This document shows, piece by piece, positions 7,384 through 24,415 of a DNA stretch of 64,000 bases (the first letter of the stretch is position 1; the number at the start of each line of letters is the position of its first letter). The translations under genes and the position numbers were made by a program. Under the pieces are notes generated by a model, which worked only from the letters and a program-made list of their open reading frames with translations, was not told the origin of the DNA and did not search any database. Source of the DNA: Nitrospira sp. MA-1 (GTDB taxonomy: Bacteria > Nitrospirota > Nitrospiria > Nitrospirales > UBA8639). Location of the stretch: the NCBI GenBank assembly GCA_032139905.1, contig JAQJDB010000007.1, positions 930,001-994,000 of the forward strand, given 5' to 3'.

Positions 7384-7689
7384 GGCGGGCAACCGGCTCA
7401 ATAGCCCTTGGTGCCTGCAGACCGGTCATTTCTCTCTATTAATAAAGTGTAGGATTATGATTGGGCCGAAAGCCCGATGAGGGAAATGGGAAATGTGTGG
7501 AAGTTATTTGTCAGTTGAGTTAGGCTTTTTGCACATCTTATGACGTAGCTCCGTATGGAAAGTAGCGTTGAGTGAAAACGATGAAGTGGCATAGGAATTT
7601 GAGCAGGCTGCACTTGGTCATTCGCAGCAGTAATAATTTCATGATTGGCTTTATCCCAAAATTCATTCATGGGCTCCGGAGGAACGAAC

Positions 7690-9867
7690 ATGAAAATGTA
7701 CAACCGAATGCTCCTTGCGTGCATAATCATCCTGATGCTCGCATTCATTGCAACACTGAGCTATGGGGCGGAGACGGTCCGGGTCAGTGTCAGCTCTGGA
7801 AATCTACAGGCCAATAATACGAGTTTTCGTCCAGACCTTAATGAGAATGGCAGACTGGTTTCCTACTATTCCTCCGCAACCAATCTGGTGCCCGGTGATA
7901 CCAATGGGGTACGGGATATATTCGTGTACGATCGGCAAACCCAACAAAACACGCGCATAAGTGTGGCGACGGGCGGAAACCAGGCCAATGGCGAGAGCCT
8001 TGACCCCGCCATCAGTGCCAATGGACGTTATGTGGCATTTCGATCGGCCGCCACGAACCTTGTCCCGGGAGATACCAATGGGGCTATTGATGTGTTCGTC
8101 CACGATCGGCAGACGGGCATGACGAGCCGGGTTAGTGTGGCGACGGGCGGGGGCCAGTCCAATAACAATAGTTTCACTCCATCCTTGAGTGCTGACGGCA
8201 GATTCGTGGCGTTCCACTCCTTTGCGACTAACTTGGTGCCGGGGGACACCAATAGAGTCTTGGATGTGTTCGTTCATGATCGGCAAACAGGGGCGACCAC
8301 CCGCGTGAGTGTGGCCACAGGTGCCATCCAGGGGAATAATACCAGTCGAGCGGGATTTCTCAGTGCGAATGGTCGCTTGGTTGCGTTTGAATCCGATGCG
8401 ACGAATCTGGTCCCTGGGGACACCAATGGTGTGCGAGATATGTTTGTTCACGATCGACAAACCGGGGTGACGACGCGTGTGAGTGTCGCCACAGGCGGAG
8501 GACAGGTAGATGGTGCGAGTGTGGATGCCGAATTGAGTGCGGATGGTCGCTATGTGACATTTCAGTCGGATGCGACGAATCTGGTCGCTGGCGATACCAA
8601 TGGAGTGGGGGATGTGTTTGTCCATGACCGTCAAACAACCACGACCACGCGCGTGAGTGTGGCAAGTGGTGGTCTCCAAGGGGGTGGAGAGAGTTCAGAG
8701 GGGACCATCAGCGGGGATGGACGATTTGTCGCATTTCTTTCTTTTGCCACGAATCTCGTTCCTGGCGATACCAATGGCGAAGGTGATGTGTTTGTGCATG
8801 ATCGTCAGACCAACACCACCACCAGGATGAGTGTGACGACTGGTGGGGTGCAAGGCAATGACTTTAGTTGTAATCCTGCCATCAGTCAGGATGGTCGGAT
8901 AGTCGGATTGTTTTCCGATTCAACCAATCTTGTCCCTGGTGACACGAATGGACTCCGGGATATTTTCATTCATAACCGCACGACGGACTTTGATTTGGAT
9001 GGGGATGGCAAGGCGGACATCGTGTGGCGCCATACGATTACCGGGGCGACGGCCATTTGGTTGATGAATGGGACGACCATTGCTTCCCCACGTTTTCCAG
9101 GAGGAGTTTCTGCGGTTTGGGAAATTGTCGGTATCGGCGATGTAAATGCCGATGGCAAGGCTGATGTCATTTGGCGCAATAGCACCAGTGGCACGGTTGC
9201 CGTGTGGTTAATGAATGGGCATATCATCACCTCAGTCGGCTTCCCGGGCACCGTCCCCACTGGTTGGGTGCTTGAGCAAATTGGAGATGTGGATGGGAAT
9301 GGCACGGCAGACCTCATTTGGCAAAACACCAATAGCACGGTGGTCGTCGTGTGGCTGATGAATGGAGCAACCATTGCTTCATCCAAATCCCTCGGCGGTG
9401 TCCCGGGTGTGTGGAAGATTGTCGGATTGGGTGATGTCAATGCCGATCGCAAAACCGATATTATCTGGTGGAATAGTACCAGCGGGGCGGTGGCCATATG
9501 GTTAATGAACGGGCTTACGGTCCAGTCGATCGGAGTCCCAGGTAGTGCGATTTTGGCCTTTGAGGTAGCCGGGGTGGGGGATGTCGATGGTAACGGGACA
9601 GCTGATTTGATCTGGCGCAATACCGGCAGCGGTGCGCTGGCTTTCTGGTTGATGAATGGACTCACCATTGGGAACACGGGTTCCTTGGCGGGTAAGGTCT
9701 TGGAATGGGAGATTGCCCAGGTTAGTGATCGGGATGGTAGCGGGAAAGACGATATTACCTGGTTCAATACCAATTCAGGTGAGGTCGAAATATGGCTGAT
9801 GAATGGAGTTACGGTTGGTTCAACAGGTTCTCCAGGCACCACCTCTCCGAGTTGGGAGATTCAATAG
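7690..9867 (+). CDS. Secreted repeat protein: seven PD40-like and six FG-GAP-like repeats
   Basis: 725 residues. A signal peptide (LLACIIILMLAFIATLSYGA) leads into seven tandem units of 58 residues (ATNLVPGDTNG, DVFVHDRQT), resembling TolB/WD40-type PD40 blades. Six units of about 49 residues follow, each with a DxDGxGxAD calcium loop and IWxxxxSGxVAxWLMNG, as in FG-GAP/VCBS propellers. Two stacked beta-propellers outside the cytoplasm are likely. GGAGG lies seven bases before the ATG at 7690, which is preferred to an ATG 45 bases upstream. Such proteins usually bind surfaces, glycans or ions; no enzyme motif is visible. Confidence 0.85.
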   Translation: MKMYNRMLLACIIILMLAFIATLSYGAETVRVSVSSGNLQANNTSFRPDLNENGRLVSYYSSATNLVPGDTNGVRDIFVYDRQTQQNTRISVATGGNQANGESLDPAISANGRYVAFRSAATNLVPGDTNGAIDVFVHDRQTGMTSRVSVATGGGQSNNNSFTPSLSADGRFVAFHSFATNLVPGDTNRVLDVFVHDRQTGATTRVSVATGAIQGNNTSRAGFLSANGRLVAFESDATNLVPGDTNGVRDMFVHDRQTGVTTRVSVATGGGQVDGASVDAELSADGRYVTFQSDATNLVAGDTNGVGDVFVHDRQTTTTTRVSVASGGLQGGGESSEGTISGDGRFVAFLSFATNLVPGDTNGEGDVFVHDRQTNTTTRMSVTTGGVQGNDFSCNPAISQDGRIVGLFSDSTNLVPGDTNGLRDIFIHNRTTDFDLDGDGKADIVWRHTITGATAIWLMNGTTIASPRFPGGVSAVWEIVGIGDVNADGKADVIWRNSTSGTVAVWLMNGHIITSVGFPGTVPTGWVLEQIGDVDGNGTADLIWQNTNSTVVVVWLMNGATIASSKSLGGVPGVWKIVGLGDVNADRKTDIIWWNSTSGAVAIWLMNGLTVQSIGVPGSAILAFEVAGVGDVDGNGTADLIWRNTGSGALAFWLMNGLTIGNTGSLAGKVLEWEIAQVSDRDGSGKDDITWFNTNSGEVEIWLMNGVTVGSTGSPGTTSPSWEIQ
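7780..8985 (+). repeat. Seven tandem 174-bp coding repeats
   Basis: Units start at RVSV codons (7780, then every 174 bases to 8824); the seventh is 12 bases short. The strongest conservation is over the ATNLVPGDTNG and DRQT codons. The units differ at many silent positions, so the array is not a recent expansion. Confidence 0.9.
8986..9864 (+). repeat. Six tandem ~147-bp coding repeats (FG-GAP-like)
   Basis: Units begin with the calcium-loop codons for D-x-D/N-x-D/N-G-x-x-D and carry a nearly constant WLMNG core. They follow the first array without a linker. Confidence 0.88.
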
Positions 9868-12672: not shown

Positions 12673-12835
12673 CTATCCCTTCCCATTCTTCTGTTTACCC
12701 AGTTTCGTGAGATTAGTGATCCAGGTGTTTGGTGATTAAATCTCGGTTCCGTTGATTCAGGGCAGACGGTCCACCCGTATCAACCTCGCTGGCTCGAAGC
12801 GTATCCATGAAATCCCGCCGATAAGCCTTAAAAAG
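12673..12835 (-). pseudogene. Broken 3' end of a second yaiI-like gene
   Basis: Read on the minus strand this gives [20 protein letters not shown] and then [15 protein letters not shown], which matches the last third of the intact yaiI at 16272-16739 ([20 protein letters not shown], then [16 protein letters not shown]). DNA similarity carries on through a one-base shift to a TAG at 12673, aligned with the intact gene's stop. About 73 of 100 aligned bases agree across 12721-12820, so this is an old or foreign copy. The 5' two thirds are missing. The rest of the gap 12292-13298 shows no supported gene, only a 61-codon minus-strand frame at 12372-12557 that may be chance. Confidence 0.82.
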
Positions 12836-16271: not shown

Positions 16272-16739
16272 CTAGTCCTTCTCTTTCTCCTGTTTAACAA
16301 GGTTCGTTAAATAGTAGTCGAGGTGTTTGGCGAATAATTGCCGGTCCCTCTGGCTTAAGGACGACGGCCCGCCTGTGTCAACTCCACTGGCTCGAAGTGT
16401 ATCCATAAAATCCCTCATCATGAGACGGGCTTGAATCGTGTCGGGTGAATGCATTTCCCCACGCGGATCAAGCGCATGCCCACCTTTGGCAATCACCTCG
16501 GCGGCAAGCGGAATATCGGCGGTGATCACCAGGTCGCCGGCCTCAAGTCGTTTGACGATTTCGGAATCCGCCACATCAAATCCATCGGCGACTTGGATGG
16601 CCGAAATATAGGGAGATGGCGGGGTATACAGGAGGCGATTGGCGACAAGTGTCACCAGCACCGCTGTCCGGTCCGCCGCACGAAATAATATTTCTTTAAT
16701 CACCTTGGGGCAGGCATCGGCATCAACCCAGATTGGCAT
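16272..16739 (-). CDS. yaiI: YaiI/YqxD family (DUF188, UPF0178) protein
   Basis: 155 residues, a normal length for the family. The N-terminus [20 protein letters not shown] has the family's D-A-D-x-CP signature; [20 protein letters not shown] and [20 protein letters not shown] are the other conserved blocks. The aspartates and fold suggest a PIN/NYN-like nuclease, but no activity is established. AAAGG precedes the ATG. A diverged broken copy of its 3' third lies 3.4 kb to the left in the same orientation, across the hydrolase cassette. Confidence 0.93.
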
Positions 16740-20202: not shown

Positions 20203-20228
20203 GACTTCCCTCAAAGGAATCGTTTCAG

Positions 20229-20315
20229 CTATTTCTTCTTATCTTTTTTCTTCTGTTGATCGGCTTTTTGTTTTTGAGCTTTGTCTTTATCCTTTTTTCC
20301 GCCTTTGTCTCCCAT
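20229..20315 (-). CDS. Tiny lysine-rich protein, 28 residues
   Basis: Read on the minus strand: MGDKGGKKDKDKAQKQKADQ followed by QKKKDKKK and TAG. A perfect AGGAGGT lies seven bases before the ATG, the best ribosome-binding site in this part of the window. Half of the residues are lysine and there is no hydrophobic residue after the start apart from alanines, so it cannot fold as a globule; it may bind nucleic acid or ribosomes. Similar tiny MGDKGGKK-type proteins are known in other bacteria as uncharacterised. The strong hairpin downstream supports a separate transcript. Confidence 0.75.
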   Translation of the reverse strand: MGDKGGKKDKDKAQKQKADQQKKKDKKK

Positions 20316-20422
20316 GGTGTACCTCCTTTCTCTTTTAGATTGTCCGTCTTTCCGTGAAGTGTGGGCTGAACTGTTCCGATTCTCTGAGTGCCGATTTTTG
20401 TTATCCTCAGGATCAGCGATTT

Positions 20423-20486
20423 AGCTTACCATGATCCAGGGATAATAGAACCGGTTAGATGCCCATTCAATCCATCGACTGGCTTG
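20423..20486 (+). repeat. Left copy of imperfect direct repeat
   Basis: 20423-20452 matches 22061-22090 at 27 of 30 bases (core agcttaccatgatccag, then ataatagaa). 20474-20486 matches 22140-22152 exactly over 13 bases (atcgactggcttg). About 28 more bases separate the two blocks in the right copy. The pair flanks the trypsin/FGE-like gene. Confidence 0.7.
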
Positions 20487-20532
20487 CCGGTTTTTAGGCC
20501 ATCCTTTCTTCCGTCATGCCCCTTATCTTTTT

Positions 20533-21879
20533 TCATGGGGGCGTATCCGGGTTTTGAGCGCAGCGGAAACCAAGACCTACATCCGTGTGGGTTGGTGAAG
20601 CAGAAGAGCGCAATGCCACCCTCAAATATTCGTCCGTCGCGTTCCATGCTCCACCTCGTAGAACTTTTGGGGAACCCGCGACGGTCTTATCCGCATCACG
20701 GTCTGGATTCCGCAATTCATTCCAGCTATCTGCCGTCCACTCACTCACATTTCCGGCAAAGTCGTACCCTCCATAGGGACTTCTATCCTTTTCGAATGTC
20801 CCGACCGGAGAAAGTTTTGACACGTCAAAGTCACCAAATTTGGCGAAATTCGTGTATTGGCTCGTCGGAGGTTCATTGCCCCATGGATACATGCGTCCGT
20901 CTGTGCCTCGTGCGCTTTTCTCCCATTCATCTTCGGTCGGTAATCTCTTCTTGGCCCAATGGCAGTAGGCTTTGGCCTCCGGCCATGTCACACCGACGAC
21001 AGGACGATTGGCATCCTGAGGCATCTTGATGTGATCCCAGTATTCCGGCGCGGTCCGACCGGTGACTTGGAGAAATTTCCCATACCGTTCAATGGTGACC
21101 TCATACTTGTCGATGAAGAATTCTTCGACATAGATGGTATATCGACTCCCTTCGGTCATGTCCCCCGTTCCTGAGCGTGATTCTATATTCGTTTCAAACT
21201 GTCCTGCAGGGATCCGTACCATCGGTGCACCGTCTTTGCCTGAAATCTCCAGGGAAAACGAGTCGTCTCCCGATGGCTCCACATGCCATCCTTTCAACGC
21301 GATGGACAAGATCGGTGTGGGTACCGCATACCCCAGGCGTCCCTGAGCGTCTGTCACGACACCGATCACTTTGCCATCAAGCAGAAGGGGGCCGCCCGAA
21401 TGACCTTCCTCCACTAACGCCTGAAACATCAGGTGTGGTCCTTTTCTCCCGCTGATATTTCCGGTTGAGACGGTCCAGGGAGCGAGATTCGGTGGAAATC
21501 CGATGAAGGTAATGGTTTCTCCCCCGGATGCCTGGGTGGTCTGATCAAGCGGAAGAGCCACGAGTCCACCAGGAAGGGGTTCGGAAACACGCAATGTGGC
21601 CAACCCATTCTCATTTGTGCCATCGATGCCTAACACCTGTGAGGCAAACGATTGATGAGGAAGAGGAAAGAACCACACCTGTGGCGTGCTATCTCCAAAA
21701 ATCACATGTGCGGCAGTCACGATGTAGGCGGCGTCCTTGTCGAGCCTCACGATAAATCCCGTCCCGACACTTGGTTGCCCATTTACCAGTGCAGTAATTT
21801 TGACGACGCCCCTTTTGAACTCTTCAATCTCCGTGGCGTAAACAAGACCGGGAAAGAGCAGGAAGATAAAGAGGGCCAT
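20533..21879 (-). CDS. Secreted trypsin-like/FGE-sulfatase-domain fusion, probably not catalytic
   Basis: 448 residues from the ATG at 21879, chosen because a signal peptide (MALFIFLLFPGLVYA) starts there. A TTG at 22011 would add 44 residues; neither start has a ribosome-binding site. Residues about 20-205 are trypsin-like: VTAAHV keeps His and EEGHSGGPLL keeps Ser, but the catalytic Asp motif DLAxL reads GLATL. Residues about 225-440 are a formylglycine-generating-enzyme-type domain (RLPTEDEWEKSARG, MYPWGNE, GNVSEWTADSW, LRGGAW, GLGFRCA). After GGAW it reads NATDEYL, so both copper-binding cysteines of true FGE are absent. Likely a binding protein. Confidence 0.83.
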   Translation of the reverse strand: MALFIFLLFPGLVYATEIEEFKRGVVKITALVNGQPSVGTGFIVRLDKDAAYIVTAAHVIFGDSTPQVWFFPLPHQSFASQVLGIDGTNENGLATLRVSEPLPGGLVALPLDQTTQASGGETITFIGFPPNLAPWTVSTGNISGRKGPHLMFQALVEEGHSGGPLLLDGKVIGVVTDAQGRLGYAVPTPILSIALKGWHVEPSGDDSFSLEISGKDGAPMVRIPAGQFETNIESRSGTGDMTEGSRYTIYVEEFFIDKYEVTIERYGKFLQVTGRTAPEYWDHIKMPQDANRPVVGVTWPEAKAYCHWAKKRLPTEDEWEKSARGTDGRMYPWGNEPPTSQYTNFAKFGDFDVSKLSPVGTFEKDRSPYGGYDFAGNVSEWTADSWNELRNPDRDADKTVAGSPKVLRGGAWNATDEYLRVALRSSASPTHTDVGLGFRCAQNPDTPP

Positions 21880-22060
21880 GATGCGGGGGATAAAAGGTAC
21901 CCGTATCCATGAATGGCCCCGCACCCTATTGGAGGATGTCAGTGTTCGGTGCTTCTCGTCTGTTCTGATTGTTTGGACAACCTTTGGGTTCACCGAATAT
22001 TTTCTCTCCAATCGGGAGTGTTTCGGCTACCTGCCCTCTTTTTTTCTTTGGCCGCAACTC

Positions 22061-22152
22061 AGCTTACCATGATCCAGAAATAATAGAATCATTTTGGTGC
22101 CCGTCTGTATTGTGAACCGTTTAGACTCGGTCACGCTCTATCGACTGGCTTG
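22061..22152 (+). repeat. Right copy of imperfect direct repeat
   Basis: Partner of 20423-20486. Its last part (22131-22152) is also the very end of the decayed MFS gene fragment on the minus strand, so the repeat unit seems to be an MFS 3' end plus its downstream flank. Confidence 0.7.
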
Positions 22153-22280
22153 GGGAGATTGAGCCCATGTCCTGGTTGAATGAAGACCCAACATAGTCCA
22201 CCGAGAAATGCAACGCCGGCGGTGATGCCGAGGGTTTACGGGTCAGCCGACAGAAAAGATCTACAATGAAATTGATGTTG
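22131..22280 (-). pseudogene. Decayed 3' end of an MFS transporter gene
   Basis: Read on the minus strand, after an in-frame TAA: TLGITAGVAFLGGLCWVFIQ then PGHGLNLPKPVDRA and TGA at 22131. The intact MFS protein encoded at 22922-24415 ends SLGIAALIALLGGLCWIRIR PGMGIRS, a clear match. DNA similarity continues upstream to about 22280 through an insertion or deletion. The fragment lies in the same orientation as the intact gene and is separated from it by the DUF2442/DUF4160 pair. It cannot be expressed as a transporter. Confidence 0.8.
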
Positions 22281-22309
22281 GAGGATAGGGATGGGTTGAA
22301 TCGCAAGGG

Positions 22310-22567
22310 TTAGACGGAATGTTTGACAGGTCGTGCGGGAAGGCCTTCGAGCATTCCGATAGCGCTAATGTCTTCATCAACATCAGGCCAGTGCACTCCA
22401 TGGCCATTTCCAATAATTTGGAAGTTCTTGCGTTGTGCAGGAGTGGCATTGGTTAACCGCCACGACCATACCAAGGGCACACTGATCATTCGTCCGTCAG
22501 TTAACTGCGCGGTGATGGTCTCATCCGAGATCTCTATCGTGGATATTCTGGGTTCATTCGTGACCAC
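22310..22567 (-). CDS. DUF2442 protein
   Basis: 85 residues: ISTIEISDETITAQLTDGRM, then ISVPLVWSWRLTNATPAQRK, GHGVHWPDVDEDISAIGML, a very close fit to DUF2442, whose members are almost always encoded beside DUF4160 proteins. Its start overlaps the end of the DUF4160 gene by 14 bases. The pair is thought of as toxin-antitoxin-like because of size, linkage and scattered occurrence; no activity is established. Confidence 0.92.
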   Translation of the reverse strand: MVTNEPRISTIEISDETITAQLTDGRMISVPLVWSWRLTNATPAQRKNFQIIGNGHGVHWPDVDEDISAIGMLEGLPARPVKHSV

Positions 22568-22796
22568 AATGTTCCTCCCAGGCTTCGATTATTTTGTCTC
22601 TCTGGTCGAGCAGGATTTTTCGGATTCGATTTAACTCATGTGGCGCAAATCCATCATTACCTGCCAAGGAAATTGGTTCTAGCCAAAATTTGCAGATATG
22701 GCGCTCTCGTTGGACGTGAACATGTTTGGGTTCATTGCAGTCAAAACTATAAAAGAAAAATCGGTAAGGTCCTTCAATCCCTCGAACAGTTGGCAC
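22554..22796 (-). CDS. DUF4160 protein
   Basis: 80 residues: RGIEGPYRFFFYSFDCNEPK then HVHVQRERHICKFWLEPISL, ending with a helix LNRIRKILLDQRDKIIEAWE. This matches DUF4160, a small family with a conserved E-x-x-H-x-H-V motif that could bind a metal or nucleic acid. It is first in a two-gene overlapping operon with DUF2442. The pair sits between an intact MFS gene and a broken copy of that gene's 3' end, so it looks inserted. Confidence 0.92.
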   Translation of the reverse strand: MPTVRGIEGPYRFFFYSFDCNEPKHVHVQRERHICKFWLEPISLAGNDGFAPHELNRIRKILLDQRDKIIEAWEEHCGHE

Positions 22797-22921
22797 GATA
22801 CTTTCCAGTTTTCCTTATGGAACTGTTGTTGACTGACAGTATACGAAAAAACGCAATGAGACTCCAGGTGGCGAGAGAGTTGCTAAGTTGTTATAGCATG
22901 GCACCTGACGTCTGGCTGGTA

Positions 22922-24415
22922 TTAAGATCTTATTCCCATTCCCGGACGAATGCGGATCCAGCACAGTCCACCGAGTAGGGCAATTAAGGCGGCGATGCCG
23001 AGAGAGACCGACCAGCCGAACGTGTCCGCCAGCCATGGCGTCAATGTTGGCGAGAGAGTCCCACCCAGGTTGGCACCGGTGTTCATGAGGCCTGAGAGGG
23101 TGCCGGCGTAGGGTTTGGATAAGTCCGTGGTCGAGGACCAGAACGGGCCGACGGTGAAGTAGAGCCACCCCGCGCCGAGCGAGAGGAAGCCGATTGCGAC
23201 ATAGGGCGCTTCGATGTTGGCGCCGATGATGATGGAGAGCGCGGCCAGAATCATTCCTGCTCCTCCCACCCACGCGCGCCCATGATTGACCCCGTATTGT
23301 TCGGTGAGACGATCCGTGACCCATCCCCCTAATGGGCAGAAGATGGCCATCGCGATGAACGGCGCCGAGGCAAAGAAGGCGCCTTGGAGGATGGCAAACC
23401 CTCTCACGTTGACGAGGTAGAGATAGAACCAGGACATATAGACATAGGCGACATAGCCGAGACAGGTGTAGCTGAGCGTGAGCCACCAGACGGTGGGTGT
23501 GGTGAGGATGGCTTTCCAGGGAACGGTGGTCGTCTTTGATTTGTGAATGGGTGCTGGTTCGCTTTTCCTTCCTGTCCGTGTTGGGGTAGTGGTGTTGGGG
23601 TTGTCCTTCTTCCCACCGGTCCCGTTGCCTTTCGCCTGTGAAGCTGGAGGCCGTCCTTCACGTGTTTCGAATTCGGTGAACACATCATGGACCGTTCCCC
23701 AGGCCTTGCCGGATCGACCTTCCAAGGGAGCAGGAGGGTCGGGTAGCGATTCCGGTCCTTCGATCAGTTCCGCCTCGGCGTTGTTGACATGTGCATGTTG
23801 CCGGGGATGATCGGTTGCATACCAGTACCACAAGAGTGCGATGCCAATGCCCAATCCGCCTGCGACATAGAAGGCCGTTTGCCACCCATAATTGACCATG
23901 ATCCAGGCAGTGATAGGTGGCGTGAGGGCTGAGCCCAGGCCGATCCCTCCAATGGTGATGCCAATGCCTAAGCCCCGTTCATTCGGAGGATGCCAGTTTG
24001 CGACGGCTCGATTGAAATTGGGCAGCGCAGCGGCTTCGCCGATACCGATGAGGAATCGCACGACCATGAGTGAGCCCATAATCCCGATCAGGTTGGCCAG
24101 CGGGAGCGTGGGAGCGACGGCTGTCAGGGCTGTGAAGATCGACCACCAGATGAGGGCGAAGGTCAATACGCGACGTGGTCCCCAGCGATCGCCCAACCAG
24201 CCACCGGGAATTTGAAAGAGGGCGTAGCCAAAGACAAAGGCCGAAAAGATCTGACCCATTTGAAGGTCGGTGAGACCGAGTGCCGGCATCATTTGGCGGG
24301 CGGTGACGGAAATATTCACCCGGTCGATGTAAGTGATAATGCTGATGAGGAGGAGCAGAAGAAGAATTCGCCAGCGGATGCGAGACGGTGGGGGGGGCGA
24401 TGATAGCTGGTGCAT
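22922..24415 (-). CDS. MFS transporter, anion:cation symporter (ACS)-like
   Basis: 497 residues with 12 predicted membrane segments. The first-loop motif GGWLGDRWGPRRVL and the fourth/fifth-helix block GIGEAAALPNFNRAVANWHP with NERGLGIG are typical of ACS-family MFS carriers, which move sugar acids, organic anions or phosphate esters with H+ or Na+. The central cytoplasmic loop (about 210-290) is unusually long and rich in G, T, K and P. The substrate is unknown. Two degraded copies of its 3' end lie to the left at 22131-22280 and, more weakly, 20423-20486. Confidence 0.93.
   Translation of the reverse strand: MHQLSSPPPPSRIRWRILLLLLLISIITYIDRVNISVTARQMMPALGLTDLQMGQIFSAFVFGYALFQIPGGWLGDRWGPRRVLTFALIWWSIFTALTAVAPTLPLANLIGIMGSLMVVRFLIGIGEAAALPNFNRAVANWHPPNERGLGIGITIGGIGLGSALTPPITAWIMVNYGWQTAFYVAGGLGIGIALLWYWYATDHPRQHAHVNNAEAELIEGPESLPDPPAPLEGRSGKAWGTVHDVFTEFETREGRPPASQAKGNGTGGKKDNPNTTTPTRTGRKSEPAPIHKSKTTTVPWKAILTTPTVWWLTLSYTCLGYVAYVYMSWFYLYLVNVRGFAILQGAFFASAPFIAMAIFCPLGGWVTDRLTEQYGVNHGRAWVGGAGMILAALSIIIGANIEAPYVAIGFLSLGAGWLYFTVGPFWSSTTDLSKPYAGTLSGLMNTGANLGGTLSPTLTPWLADTFGWSVSLGIAALIALLGGLCWIRIRPGMGIRS

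Follow-up and report, generated by a model that had tools for sequence, protein, structure and literature searches.

At the 3' end of fda in Streptococcus thermophilus, integrase-less cis-mobilizable elements (CIMEs) accrete in tandem. The C-terminal tips of rhs genes are displaced by new ones, for which circular intermediates have been proposed (Jackson et al. 2009, PMC2935791), and the effector/immunity arrays of the type VI secretion system (T6SS) of Vibrio cholerae combine an upstream homology anchor, an illegitimate far end, serial arrays and displaced 3' ends (Kirchberger et al. 2017, PMC5361080). In an Escherichia coli test of homology-facilitated illegitimate recombination (HFIR), most recombinants carried duplications of 109-950 bp of the anchor gene end and arose by single crossover (PMC3240628), and insertion with a long target duplication has been described for restriction-modification genes of Helicobacter (Nobusato et al. 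2000; reviewed in PMC3874152). Here we consider a comparable architecture at an ordinary gene. In a 64,000-nucleotide stretch of a genome judged Nitrospira-like from its gene content (G000, 4.76 Mb; contig C7:930001-994000, hereafter the window), the end of a major facilitator superfamily (MFS) transporter gene is followed by two cargoes, a DUF4160/DUF2442 gene pair and a gene encoding a trypsin-like protein with an FGE-sulfatase domain (trypsin/FGE), each with a displaced copy of the MFS gene end behind it, an arrangement that probably arose by homology-anchored displacement of the native end.

Read along the minus strand, the locus consists of the MFS gene, a 125-bp spacer, the DUF4160 and DUF2442 genes, a first MFS end with its flank, the trypsin/FGE gene, a second and shorter MFS end followed by the same flank, and a Lys-rich open reading frame (ORF) (Table 1). 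A preliminary description of the sequence had proposed nested MFS-end copies around two cargoes, and this is borne out by the repeats found de novo (22170-22232 against 22940-23002, 75%; 22054-22102 against 20416-20464, 80%; 22137-22168 against 20471-20502, 75%), by pairwise alignment and by the Pfam identities. In the alignment, displaced copy 1 starts at 22249 (CGGCTG), equivalent to 23018 in the intact gene, and runs to the native stop at 22131, so that the limit of 22280 first given for this copy was about 30 nt too far, the other copy coordinates being in agreement. The repeats are not due to chance: several species have orthologous fragments in the corresponding position, and there are sites that are empty. 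A longer form of displaced copy 2 persists in the relative G017c. The DUF4160 and DUF2442 genes are adjacent, as in a DUF4160/DUF2442 toxin-antitoxin (TA) pair, listed in a literature table as dhiTA in Dickeya, and a TA function is predicted for them from sequence.

Table 1. Features of the MFS and yaiI loci (window positions).
Feature	Position	Strand	Evidence
Intact MFS transporter gene (anchor)	22922..24415	-	Pfam MFS_1 5e-70
Point J in intact MFS gene (CGGCTGG..., codons F-G-W), where the match of the displaced copies begins	22998..23018	-	
Foreign spacer between new MFS stop and DUF pair; in DUF-pair carriers only	22797..22921	-	blastn: own genome, G010, G016, G003, G004, G019
DUF4160 gene, probable TA partner	22554..22796	-	Pfam PF13711 6e-18
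DUF2442 gene, probable TA partner	22310..22567	-	Pfam PF10387 3e-18
Displaced copy 1: native MFS 3' end, CGGCTG to native stop (..WVFIQPGHGLNLPKPVDRA, stop), decaying	22131..22249	-	
Native MFS downstream flank (R), joined to displaced copy 1	22039..22130	-	
Second cargo: trypsin-like and FGE-sulfatase-domain protein	20533..22011	-	Pfam FGE-sulfatase 2e-49, Trypsin_2 6e-16
Displaced copy 2: older MFS-end remnant (GLKTGKPVDG..) with flank, gene end shortened	20396..20505	-	
Small Lys-rich ORF (about 28 aa, MGDKGGKKDK...), marks native right border	20226..20315, approximate	-	tblastn 96-100% in G002, G010, G016a, G017, G018
yaiI (DUF188), second anchor	16272..16739	-	Pfam DUF188 2e-45
Displaced yaiI 3' end, 3.5 kb downstream; begins GGGATTTCATGG	12678..12816	-	

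The MFS locus was searched in all genus members (20/20) and read wherever the match was usable. Empty and INTERMEDIATE sites were observed directly, the relatives showing no cargo, either cargo alone, both cargoes, or a third cargo consisting of another DUF4160/DUF2442 pair. No cargo stands at the MFS end of G002, G009, G017b, G006 and G007, in which the native flank or the Lys-rich ORF is directly next, this ORF coming after the MFS end in empty sites. The trypsin/FGE gene is the sole cargo in G018 and G017a and the DUF pair in G016a and G019, while both are present in the window genome, G010, G003b and G004 (the contig of G004 being incomplete); no trypsin/FGE gene was found at the MFS locus of G002, G009, G016a and G019. 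The different DUF4160/DUF2442 pair occurs at MFS in G005, G012 and G015, with a clear DUF2442 ORF still present in G015 and with the trypsin/FGE gene behind the pair in G012 and G015, and in G003a a DUF2442 of the second type comes after the first DUF pair. These states support the suggestion that different cargoes have accreted serially at one gene end. Two TIR proteins stand at MFS in G011, with no displaced or duplicated end visible; in G008 the cargo is a 1355-aa protein with weak LmuA/DUF4297 similarity, again with no visible displaced end, and the native MFS flank is lost. In G019 the interval from the MFS gene to the transglutaminase gene contains two adjacent ORFs (L047:2284-5894) that correspond to the two halves of Dsr1, a SIR2 defence protein. 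G005 and G006 have displaced MFS fragments of greater length, 55 codons (L054 4080-4244 and L055 3596-3760, oriented), on the far side of the Lys-rich ORF region, which suggests that the Lys-rich ORF is itself a piece of older cargo.

C-termini compared with 18 orthologues show which gene end is foreign. The last codons of the intact MFS gene, WIRIRPGMGIRS and stop, are of a type restricted to DUF-pair carriers, the tail being ..RIRPGMGIRS-stop or a close variant in every carrier of the first pair (IFIRPGTGIRS in G019). In the displaced copies, which lie behind the cargo, the encoded end is ..xFIQPGHGLN.. or a close variant, as in the empty sites G002, G009 and G017b, whose C-terminus type displaced copy 1 also matches. 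Judged by these sequences, the intact MFS tail of DUF-pair carriers is the foreign one and the displaced fragment the native one; the intact tail being unlike, and the displaced tail like, the empty sites, the cargo appears to have brought its own gene tail and to have shunted the native tail downstream. The decayed fragment of the preliminary description is a real displaced end, with the roles of the two ends corrected. Similar differences were observed elsewhere on the contig. At locus 7 (C7:625167-626288) the empty sites and the displaced copy have CCACCCGAATAA-like ends (QPPE-stop type) and the TA carriers end in ..CCCTCGTAA (QPS-stop type), and at locus 0 (C7:67975-69714) the intact end GAACCCCTCTTATAA encodes the same residues (EPLL-stop) as the native GAACCCTTGCTCTAA, recoded. 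The MFS copies of G005 have about 75 nt in common with one mismatch, followed by synonymous differences in IRPGLGLK; this recoding means that the tail is a homologous gene end and not random cargo. The G003/G017 type is seen in the displaced end and flank of locus 5 (C7:1117480-1120005), where the bases downstream of the intact gene are a diverged version.

The same logic had been supposed for yaiI, the second anchor in the window, and it holds there, 16312-16414 being repeated at 12714-12816 (75%). Across the genus uvrA is a hotspot, with displaced 3' ends in G002, G004, G006, G009, G011, G016 and G017 as well as in the window genome and with cargo comprising PIN/antitoxin, HigA, TIR, FRG and HNH proteins; G008 has, near its uvrA end, a DUF4917 protein belonging to the candidate defence family PDC-S21. 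The displaced uvrA ends begin at widely differing points, about 112-413 (own coordinates) within the final 500 nt, and those of MFS fall into at least two start classes. The uvrA-locus cargo of G006 and G016 contains two integrase 3' fragments (L146:7570-7730 and L144:3300-3460), each some 60 codons long and sharing 77% identity over 154 bp, which by eye resemble the C-terminus of an integron-type integrase. In another family of the order, G046 carries the DUF pair after a wecB-like gene (named from sequence, not from a profile) with three displaced wecB ends, and the DUF pairs of G026, G029 and G033, from other genera, have no flanking repeat. A by-eye look at the start points of uvrA, yaiI and wecB gave a possible motif, TGCG..GAT, which we do not claim.

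To place these loci in the genome, gene-end fragments within 8 kb of their genes were collected along C7:1-1,600,000 (1420 called genes), repeats and paralogues being removed. On the strand of the gene itself, the scan returned 11 3'-end fragments lying downstream (two of them very short and one in a repeat-rich stretch), 3 5'-end fragments upstream and 3 3'-end fragments upstream, two of these last linked to paralogues or another case; no gene-end fragment was found nearby on the opposite strand in this interval. The anticipated genome-wide excess of downstream 3'-end fragments is thus present, though modest as a bare count (11 against 3 5'-end fragments, two-sided p = 0.057). Locus 8 (C7:73776), in a repeat-rich stretch, was not counted as a clean case, and locus 1 (C7:19010-20344) was set aside for a dispersed repeat within its cargo. 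The 5'-end fragments, mirror-image cases that share the strand of the intact gene and precede it by 1.0-3.1 kb, are at C7:640406-640497, 352873-352957 and 114347-114410. The expectation of TA-like cargo was likewise upheld, several cargoes being TA pairs or defence genes: uvrA is followed by a ParE-like/Unstab_antitox pair, locus 7 carries a ParE/RHH pair and MFS has the DUF pair behind it. Direct repeats bridge 3 of the 8 TA-type toxin genes recognised on C7 by profile (ParE and PIN families), compared with 18 of 300 positions chosen at random (Fisher p = 0.012).

Other repeats were noted on this contig. The repeated segment at C7:112903-115428 (about 400 and 300 bp, 78-82% identical) contains a ParE toxin gene. 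The dispersed repeat C7:20361-20705 (L057:361-705), present in tens of copies in most genus genomes and with 38 matches here, has a conserved two-hairpin start (AGCCGGGTTTCGCCCCGGCAGCCGAGGTCCTTTTG...), and one copy lies in the stretch that separates a gene from its displaced 3' end. A 740-aa ORF in the window (7645-9867) contains regular internal DNA repeats of 174 and 147 bp.

As with rhs genes, a new tip shunts the old 3' end and part of the gene downstream, the attached and displaced copies agree in the common gene part and differ in their tips, and fragment length varies between events (here at uvrA and MFS); at MFS and locus 7 a displaced native end lies behind an acquired end and its cargo. 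However, an rhs gene is a polymorphic toxin with its tip as payload, whereas the anchors here (MFS transporter, uvrA, yaiI, wecB and others) are ordinary genes, not polymorphic toxins or effectors, and the TA or defence payload is separate; the present loci therefore work like rhs/T6SS displacement without being members of it. The V. cholerae arrays share with them, on our reading, the anchor, the illegitimate far end, the serial arrays and the displaced ends, but are confined to effector-immunity modules with a T6SS anchor. CIMEs at fda also stack without integrase at a protein-gene 3' end, but with a fixed attachment (att) core and a known integrase family. In the E. coli test system homology is one-sided, as proposed here, but the events are experimental and rare, and the true HFIR events gave deletions (PMC3240628). 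Restriction-modification insertions, as far as the available part of their literature goes, resemble our loci in involving addictive gene pairs without a transposase and variable direct repeats of about 100 bp, and that part does not describe a new homologous tail on the target gene. Taken by analogy, rhs, T6SS arrays, HFIR and long target duplication together cover the anatomy, and the need for a new, unnamed route, as hinted at in the preliminary description, finds no support so far. The architecture is already familiar from polymorphic toxins and, less strictly, from restriction-modification genes; the open-access literature gave no description of gene-end displacement at ordinary genes whose cargo is TA or defence genes, and none in Nitrospira.

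Homology-anchored gene-end displacement, already put forward for the rhs tips and the T6SS arrays, by one-sided (homology-facilitated illegitimate) or circle-mediated recombination, is the best explanation, and we hold it with reasonable, though not high, confidence. Small cargo modules (TA pairs, defence genes and others) would arrive joined to a conserved gene's 3' end that stems from a related donor, and homologous recombination within the gene end would link the resident gene to the donor's last codons and cargo. On its gene side each insertion is homologous and, close to the stop, donor-like. The far side could close by an illegitimate join, or by a single crossover of a circle holding only part of the gene end, with the join placed 50-260 nt upstream within the resident gene or in another position. 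The resident gene would remain intact with a new tail, its old 3' end and flank being pushed downstream of the cargo, and repeated rounds would yield nested displaced ends as at MFS, uvrA and wecB. The donor, the form of its DNA (linear or circular), the uptake route and a TA addiction favouring retention are what we infer around the observed states, tails, starts and recurrence. Recombination of this kind, anchored by homology and completed at the far end illegitimately or through a circle, fits the varied start points at uvrA and the two classes at MFS.

Several observations weigh against this explanation. Different cargoes have the same fragment start at MFS (DUF pairs A and C and, approximately, the trypsin/FGE gene), at wecB (three copies), at uvrA (two) and at yaiI (the window genome and G016, by eye); these common starts are the strongest counter-evidence, because a random join does not predict them. 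A table of tail identities separates the copies at loci 0 and 7, at uvrA against G018 and at locus 5 against G003, but in its MFS rows the displaced copy is not clearly closer to the empty sites; foreign and native tails are told apart incompletely in this table, and it is the alignments that carry the argument. No donor was identified for the foreign tails. The common starts may be inherited, later cargo having entered in front of older cargo or circles having held the same piece, or may reflect a site-specific recombinase. They make a lost site-specific integrase the main rival: gene 3' ends would be attachment sites, and cis-mobilizable elements carrying substitute ends, their integrases lost, would have accreted in tandem. 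Integrative elements typically carry substitute gene ends, and the integrase C-terminal remnants in the two uvrA-locus cargoes of G006 and G016 keep this rival alive. These remnants, however, look like displaced ends themselves, being about 60-codon 3' fragments of an integrase gene; tblastn of the MFS hotspot loci revealed no integrase or remnant, and no PF00589 domain was found near the MFS, uvrA or yaiI cargo of the window genome. With start points differing at uvrA and MFS, cargoes down to 0.4-0.7 kb, mirror-image 5' fragments, and a G005 common part that is near-identical yet followed by a recoded tail, we judge site-specific integration unlikely. One fixed att site for all events is ruled out by the varying uvrA starts, a result that applies to the events together and not gene by gene.

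Insertion with long target duplication, in which cargo captured at a break with far-apart nicks would duplicate about 50-260 bp of native sequence and gene-end positions would survive as harmless, accounts for variable direct repeats about 100 bp long and unaccompanied by a transposase, for the 5'-end cases and for the G005 repeat, about 74/75 identical. Both repeat copies should then be native at birth, which is not so at locus 0 and G005 MFS, where the tails are homologous but foreign and synonymously recoded; pure native duplication would not yield them, and we find this alternative distinctly improbable. Three tandem copies of one gene end could also recall stepwise tandem duplication of a whole gene followed by decay, with unrelated genes inserted later, the outcome against which the proposed accretion had been set. 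No genome read has a 5' part of an extra copy at the locus and the empty sites carry a single end, which leaves this explanation with hardly any credibility.

It has long been asked how solitary TA and defence modules of chromosomes are transferred in the absence of a mobile element, and our analysis suggests a spread route for such cassettes that lack a transposon or integrase of their own. With about ten events that left displaced native ends in one genome, and with empty sites in relatives, borders and arrival order become readable and donors searchable, displaced gene ends giving a simple search rule for integrase-free cargo. Passing cargo can, moreover, exchange the C-termini of ordinary genes. 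A bolder and quite doubtful extension is that a dedicated, as yet unnamed recombination system, acting in trans with preferred points in protein-gene 3' ends, moves integrase-less TA and defence cassettes with gene-specific replacement tails through the Nitrospirales; if true, it would be a cassette system with ordinary genes as docking sites.

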